64,000 nucleotides of DNA from Urechis unicinctus (Eukaryota > Annelida > Polychaeta > Xenopneusta > Urechidae): contig CM067356.1 in the NCBI GenBank assembly GCA_034190875.2, forward strand, positions 21,623,758-21,687,757. Reading direction: 5' to 3'. Both the position numbers and the translations under genes were made by a program. Shown here piece by piece: positions 22,017 through 22,735 of this stretch; positions within the stretch are counted from its first letter, which is position 1; every line of letters begins with the position of its first letter. The notes under the pieces were generated by a model. That model made no database searches and was not told the DNA's origin. It saw nothing but the letters and a program-made list of their open reading frames with translations.

Positions 22017-22735
22017 GGATCCTGATACCATCATTGATCAATTACTCCTTGCACAGAACGCTAAGTCCATGGCTAGCCCAGTGACCAGAGCGCCAGAACC
22101 CACAGGGGACATGGCTTCTAAGAGAGATATGCTTGGTGCTGTCATAGCTGGGAGTCAGGCGCGTCAGTACCTGGGTGAGCAGCGCCTTACAATTGACCAG
22201 GTTAAATTAATGTCGGTCGAATGAGATCACAAAGCTGTATGTAAGATACGAGTCTCGGCTAGGCGCTAGCATGACGCGCACACTAGTCAGACAGTATTAC
22301 AGCTGTACTCCCGGGGGGGGGGGGGGGTACTTGGCATTATTCTGGATAGGGGTGTGCCGCGGGACCTCGAAAACCCGTACCCGTCGTACAAGGTCAAAAT
22401 GGCCAAAAGCATACCCCGTCGTACAAGGTATTATGCGAATGTATAACCCGTCGTACAGATTGGAGCTGAAAAACATACCCCGTCGTACAAGTATGAGGCC
22501 CAAAAATCCGTCGTACAAGTCGAGAGGCTGAAAAAACATACCCCGTCGCGCGGCACATATATACTACCTCTATACACTTAAGTGCCCCCCCCCGGGCTAT
22601 ACTCAGGTATTGCTTGTATATTTCTACCTATCCTACCTGAACGCCAGCAAAATATAATAACAGACCTTAAGGCCGACCCGTTTGTTGGGCACACGCTAAT
22701 CACTGCTACTTGCGAGCTATATCATCGTTAAGGTA
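22017..22735 (+). pseudogene. Polinton-type hypothetical protein, split by an insertion
   Basis: The first frame (from the ATG near 22015) contains [25 protein letters not shown] sequence with [13 protein letters not shown]. After a frameshift near 22217 the homologous reading continues as DEITKLYVRYESRLGAS up to about 22308. It resumes after the inserted element (from about 22598) with ITDLKADPFVGHTL and CELYHR before a stop. From memory, this arrangement matches a conserved protein of unknown function in animal Polinton-like elements. At least one frameshift, one stop and a transposon insertion make it non-functional. Confidence 0.6.
22309..22597 (+). mobile_element. CGTCGTACAAG repeat element inside a Polinton gene
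   Basis: The element starts in a G run of about 15 followed by TACTTGGCATTATTCTGG and ends ACACTTAAGTGC plus a C run. Six CGTCGTACAAG-type units lie inside in direct orientation. Protein similarity to the Polinton gene stops at its left edge and restarts at its right edge, so this is a real insertion of about 289 bp. A target duplication is hard to see because both ends are homopolymers (CCCGGGGG left, CCCCCGGG right). Confidence 0.85.

Follow-up and report, generated by a model that had tools for sequence, protein, structure and literature searches.

The repeat family described here is very probably a family of high-copy miniature non-autonomous cut-and-paste DNA transposons (MITEs) with an 8-bp target site duplication (TSD). 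The layout of an element is 8-bp TSD, CCC-G(n)-CACTT ... AAGTG-C(n)-GGG and 8-bp TSD, in which the ends form a short terminal inverted repeat (TIR). The elements are short, with a core of 257 bp in the common form, and have the TIR, constant-length TSD and high copy number of the MITE class (4566 motif matches). Short MITE passengers of this general kind are already well known; what is odd here is that the terminal repeats contain two G/C runs which slip independently. No family with such ends was found in the literature searched, of which the coverage was partial and mostly of abstract openings.

The distribution of the family was profiled through its internal motif. In the window, which is the whole 64,000-nt stretch of DNA analysed here, the 13-base motif, when up to two mismatches are allowed, has 30 matches where 0.64 are expected, and the dense array described in an earlier note on this DNA is confirmed. 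In the 1.19-Gb assembly of 926 contigs the 15-mer ACCCCGTCGTACAAG has 4566 exact occurrences, against one for a reversed control pattern. The surroundings of 60 exact 15-mer places (L001-L060), all on contig C1, were taken for study, and a profile built from 21 near-full cores was run over these stretches and the window, which provided 75 chained elements, 53 of them with both ends. The copies lie near one consensus, with a median K2P of 35 cores of 0.032, a value biased downward by the selection of the copies by exact 15-mer on one contig. The motif count, the common consensus and the TSDs bear out the mobile repeat family proposed in the earlier note.

The core of the common form (CACTTGGCC...ACACTTAAGTG) is bordered by the G run on the left and the C run on the right, with CCC and GGG outermost, and CACTT is common to both ends. 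A second inverted block, TGTGCCGCGnGAC, occupies consensus positions 26-38 on the left and 28-40 counted from the right end. Between the ends the core carries five motif copies in a single direction, with CGTCG at consensus positions 55, 90, 122, 154 and 182, and the right end contains ATACACTTAA. Folding of the element as single-stranded DNA was no better than that of shuffles (z 0.09), and the search of the window against Rfam gave no match reaching the gathering score.

The copy from which the family was recognised occupies 22310-22595 (286 bp) on the forward strand, close to the edges of 22309 and 22597 proposed earlier. It begins with CCC and G15 (22310-22327), read from the sequence under the CCC/G(n) rule that was tested on 46 independent copies, and continues with the 257-bp core TACTTGG...AAGTG (22328-22584), which matches the profile with an E-value of 9.1e-96 and lies at a K2P of 0.024 from the family consensus. 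A motif search placed the five same-direction 13-bp motifs at 22380, 22415, 22447, 22479 and 22507 (22380-22519 in all), and the right terminus of C9 and GG follows at 22585-22595. The left TSD GCTGTACT (22302-22309) and the right TSD GCTATACT (22596-22603), both on the forward strand, match in 7 of 8 positions; the right terminus and right TSD rest on the TSD rule test given below, and the TSD is present as a single 8-mer at five empty sites. Moving the borders by one base (CTGTACTC/CTATACTC) gives an equally good fit for this copy.

These empty sites were obtained by searching the left and right flanks of the copy separately in the genome. The split repeat is abundant (1896 first-look candidates for the left flank and 1778 for the right, 40 scored each), and three loci, on C4, C11 and C1, were found by both searches with the flanks contiguous. 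Together with two more left-flank loci they make up the five empty sites (L076, L077, L078, L085 and L086). At all five the two flanks are contiguous and overlap by 8 bp, leaving one 8-mer, and no G/C run is present; at L078 and L086 this holds after one of the two alignments, which ended early, was lengthened by a few bases. Both kinds of support that had been suggested for this family, a constant target duplication and one set of ends, are present. Among the non-self left-flank rows, 35 of 40 stop at query position 292-294, which was discarded as evidence because the query itself ends there. At L077 an open frame of 100 residues (P0001) crosses the insertion site unbroken, and it has at least seven listed homologues, all unnamed, with identities of 58-66%; six have 144-175 residues and the other has 78. 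The uninterrupted frame and its relatives therefore indicate that the MITE split a conserved coding sequence, and the copy is a true insertion into a conserved, gene-like repeat, as had been claimed. The earlier note had called the split gene a Polinton gene. P0001 has no Pfam domain, and a degraded DNA_pol_B_2 (type-B DNA polymerase) piece at 24488-24784, 1.9 kb downstream, with an E-value of 0.00046 that is below the Pfam cut-off, fits a Polinton-like element and gives that name weak support.

Throughout the sample, exact flank-to-flank direct repeats sit mostly directly outside CCC and GGG, and their commonest length is 8 bp, for example GTAGAGTC (L002), AAGGAATC (L011), CTATCCGT (L027) and CAATCACT (L028). 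A rule was derived from a first set (L001-L040 and the window), which demands that the 8 bp immediately beyond CC(C) and GG(G) be alike in at least 7 positions, and was applied to 46 independent full copies with L041-L060 as the held-out set. The rule was passed by 19 of 31 copies in the first set against 0 of 930 mismatched pairs, and by 9 of 15 held-out copies against 1 of 210; the 28 matches include two that are weak, with repetitive flanks (L012, with GTAGGTAG repeats, and L053, with a CCTCCCTC flank). A looser test was passed by 26 of the 46 copies against 0.42 expected, and an exact repeat of at least 7 bases was found for 29 of 46 against 41 of 600, although the repeat of at least three of these copies (L021, L028 and window 781) lies elsewhere than the TSD. 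Under the rule 18 of the 46 copies show no TSD of 7/8 or better: in 11 of the 46 no CC/GG anchor can be recognised at one end or at both, and among the 35 anchored copies 7 still fail. In this small sample of 28 TSDs the target 8-mers depart little from randomness other than at their first and last bases. T stands at position 1 of the left TSD copy in 1 of 28 and A at its position 8 in none of 28 (uncorrected chi-square p 0.0002 and 0.012, eight positions tested), and in the right copy the same two bases are found in 4 and 2 of 28.

The runs beside the core vary widely. Over the 53 full copies the pure G run has a median of 9 (0-29) and the C run a median of 10 (0-28), and the two lengths are uncorrelated (Spearman -0.08, n=53). 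One insertion is present in four tandem copies at L020, with G runs of 9, 10, 10 and 16 and C runs of 11, 12, 10 and 10, and tract length also differs within one duplicated insertion in the pairs L021/L022 and L006/L029. Since the same insertion in duplicated DNA differs in run length, the runs slip after insertion; the lengths are thus shown to change independently at the two ends, and the common ends with slipping G/C tracts that had been described are upheld. The L020 locus (G000:C1:20916529-20924434) is itself a tandem array with a period of about 1.3 kb, its four units having one MITE each and the same TSD.

Variable tracts at both ends are also what would be seen if the elements inserted into pre-existing G/C microsatellites, the tracts being target and not element, as in MITEs that target (TA)n. 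This reading is extremely improbable, and the copies tested already contradict it: their TSDs are found beyond the tracts, the two tracts are in inverted orientation (G on the left, C on the right), and no tract is present at any of the five empty sites. The position of the runs within the TSDs makes them part of the element, in which they may act as replication-slippage spacers that the transposase tolerates. Since the enzyme has to cut at a precise base, transposon ends normally have a constant length, and multiplication despite independently slipping G/C runs would show how loose the measurement of an end can be. The range of run lengths can be read from the many assembled copies with TSDs, blurred for the moment of the jump by slippage after insertion. 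The runs may also help annotators to recognise ends that repeat-finding programs could trim.

The earlier note had listed six further window copies as sharing these ends, which is so for four of them. The copy noted at 768 is a full one at 771-1046 (+), found by the profile, with a TSD of CCCCTAGG (763-770) and CCCCTAGA (1047-1054) that agrees in 7 of 8 positions. Those noted at 12320 and 11817 are internally deleted and lie on the minus strand. The former (12311-12529) has the TSD GTCCCAGT at 12303-12310 and 12530-12537, alike in 8 of 8 by reading and outside the rule test, and its exact repeat is 10 bp, which leaves the border uncertain by 2; the latter (11826-12003), a profile match, has both end blocks and no TSD was seen, and L032 has the same insertion with the same flanks. 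The fourth, noted at 36131, is a long form at 36134-36772 (+) with both end blocks, again with no TSD seen. The rearranged long-form copy noted at 31655 (31672-32091, +) keeps only the left end, with a small loss, and the truncated copy noted at 1495 (1513-1633, -), a profile match, has neither shared end.

In long forms such as 36134-36772, L018, L037 and L038 a left array and a right array surround a centre without array; L038 contains a repeated unit of 68 bp. When the centre of the 36131 copy served as a DNA query, 40 of 1259 candidates were scored and yielded 63 matches, and among the matches so listed there was no transposase-bearing version and no pair of halves kilobases apart. A 188-codon open frame at 36234-36800 spans this copy; a coding reading of the long form was rejected, as the frame is absent from 11 other long forms, whose longest frames have 70-127 codons, and has no Pfam match. 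The family therefore shows no coding capacity of its own, as in MITEs. Among the minor features of long forms, L034 and L019 have a central hairpin-like inverted repeat with ends CCAC...GTGG, possibly another small transposon, and on C631 an array of 2.55-kb period has the long-form centre sequence in each unit. A long (TATG)n microsatellite lies just past the long-form copy of the window, at 36915-37590.

The transposase that moves the family would be encoded elsewhere, and the 8-bp stagger suggests that it is most likely P- or hAT-like. It may recognise CACTT/TGTGCCGCG, possibly together with the array as a set of repeated binding sites, cut outside CCC/GGG and insert into nearly random 8-mers. 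The 8-bp TSD favours P or hAT as the superfamily, and transposases of both types are abundant in this genome. No autonomous element with the MITE ends was found in one P family, four other P loci and two hAT loci, for which 4.0-5.6 kb were read, a length that may miss ends.

A P-superfamily transposase as the partner, making the family a P-MITE with a THAP-type binding site in its ends, is a tentative possibility, with somewhat less than an even chance. P-superfamily TSDs are 8 or 7 bp, which agrees with the family, while P-superfamily TIRs start with CA and the ends here start with CCC. The genome gave 151 reported P-type transposase matches (150 of 331 candidates scored), several with long open frames, and ATACACTTAA in the right end fits AT(A/C)CACTTAA, which we take to be the binding consensus of the Drosophila P transposase, as a putative site, for which the literature search gave no support. 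The P family that could be delimited has the TIR CAAAGATTATAG and, by reading, a 7-bp TSD (AATACAG, at C4), not the MITE ends, and the P loci L063 and L071-L073 are without MITE ends in 4.5-5.6 kb that may not reach both ends. On C7 (L067+L065+L066, G000:C7:21211600-21222100) a P transposase is enclosed by two MITE ends, one right and one left, and was rejected as an autonomous element; this P copy retains the left end of its own family and no TSD is common to the two MITE flanks, so that with the TIR and the TSD of its family it is an insertion in or beside old MITE sequence. A hAT-superfamily transposase is only slightly less probable as the partner; an 8-bp TSD is a hAT hallmark, and 150 hAT-dimer matches were obtained (150 of 567 candidates scored). 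The TIRs of hAT elements usually start with CA or TA and their target is nTnnnnAn, whereas the ends here begin with CCC and the TSDs have no clear pattern of this type (T at position 2 in 9 of 28, A at position 7 in 12 of 28). The hAT loci L074 and L075 are without MITE ends in 4.0-4.3 kb, and at L061/L041 a hAT-like fragment lies kilobases away from an ordinary MITE copy, with no sign that the two form one element. In a separate place (G000:C2:7441937-7446255) four hAT-dimer matches lie about 1.37 kb apart, as in a tandem array of a hAT fragment.

It is distinctly unlikely that the family is mobilised by a transposase of an undescribed superfamily whose ends tolerate homopolymers. No partner was seen among the sampled P and hAT loci, and no type of end known to us resembles CCC-G(n)-CACTT; against this, few families were sampled, and the point is one of absence of evidence. 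The more particular proposal, that such an enzyme skips the variable G/C run and measures from CACTT and the internal array so as to cut outside CCC/GGG, is quite improbable. The earlier statement that the repeat matches no recognised superfamily is not borne out: the 8-bp TSD, short TIRs and internal array are ordinary for P/hAT-type MITEs, and the CCC-G(n) ends alone are odd. CACTA/EnSpm elements have CACT at the very end and a TSD of 2-3 bp, whereas here CACTT lies inside CCC-G(n) and the TSD is 8 bp; Helitrons make no TSD, and here one is present.

Several described systems share single traits with the family, as far as the consulted parts of their reports tell. The P-MITEs of Anopheles gambiae (PMC1562414) are likewise short, non-autonomous and numerous, with TIRs and the 8-bp TSD of P elements, which speaks for a P partner; their ends derive from identified P elements with TIRs of 27-31 bp, whereas here no parent was found and the ends hold G/C runs. 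Galileo of Drosophila (PMC3573991), a member of the P superfamily, has internally repetitive ends with direct tandem repeats that expand and contract, a variability alike to that found here and again in favour of P, but it has a 7-bp TSD and long TIRs with units of about 210 bp, in contrast to the short ends and one-direction interior array of this family. The pineapple Ac-mMITE (PMC8449440) also has boundaries that meet simple repeats; its (TA)n tract is the insertion target, while the present G/C tracts lie inside the TSD and are part of the element. Coral CMITEs (PMC2872659) are described as having a conserved interior and being able to form tandem arrays, which may be compared with L020, and are linked to piggyBac-like transposons, unlike the present elements.

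A search by exclusion pattern, for right inner ends without the usual array neighbour, gave 24 places (controls 2). At least 17 of the 24 were set aside because by reading of the letters they keep MITE pieces, as internal deletions. Of five places read more closely, L079, L082 and L083 are chance matches, and at L080 (G000:C4:17044050-17044300) and L081 (G000:C9:70529900-70530150) right ends are joined directly to unrelated sequence; these two are either truncated or, conceivably, belong to another kind of element. In L007, L024, L052, L045 and L065 a MITE left end stands beside one shared flank (ATTGCCTTAGCATCC or nearly so), which looks like a single insertion multiplied along with some other repeat. 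In the window, 670-3200 and 13007-15141 are diverged copies (pieces 85-95% identical) of one larger repeat; GGGGGCACTT at 757 and 13094 was considered as the ends of a related element and rejected, as both places lie inside this larger duplicated stretch. An open frame on the minus strand at 8258-9073 has the domain DUF5641 (E 1.9e-29), which we take to be usual in Pao-type retrotransposons.
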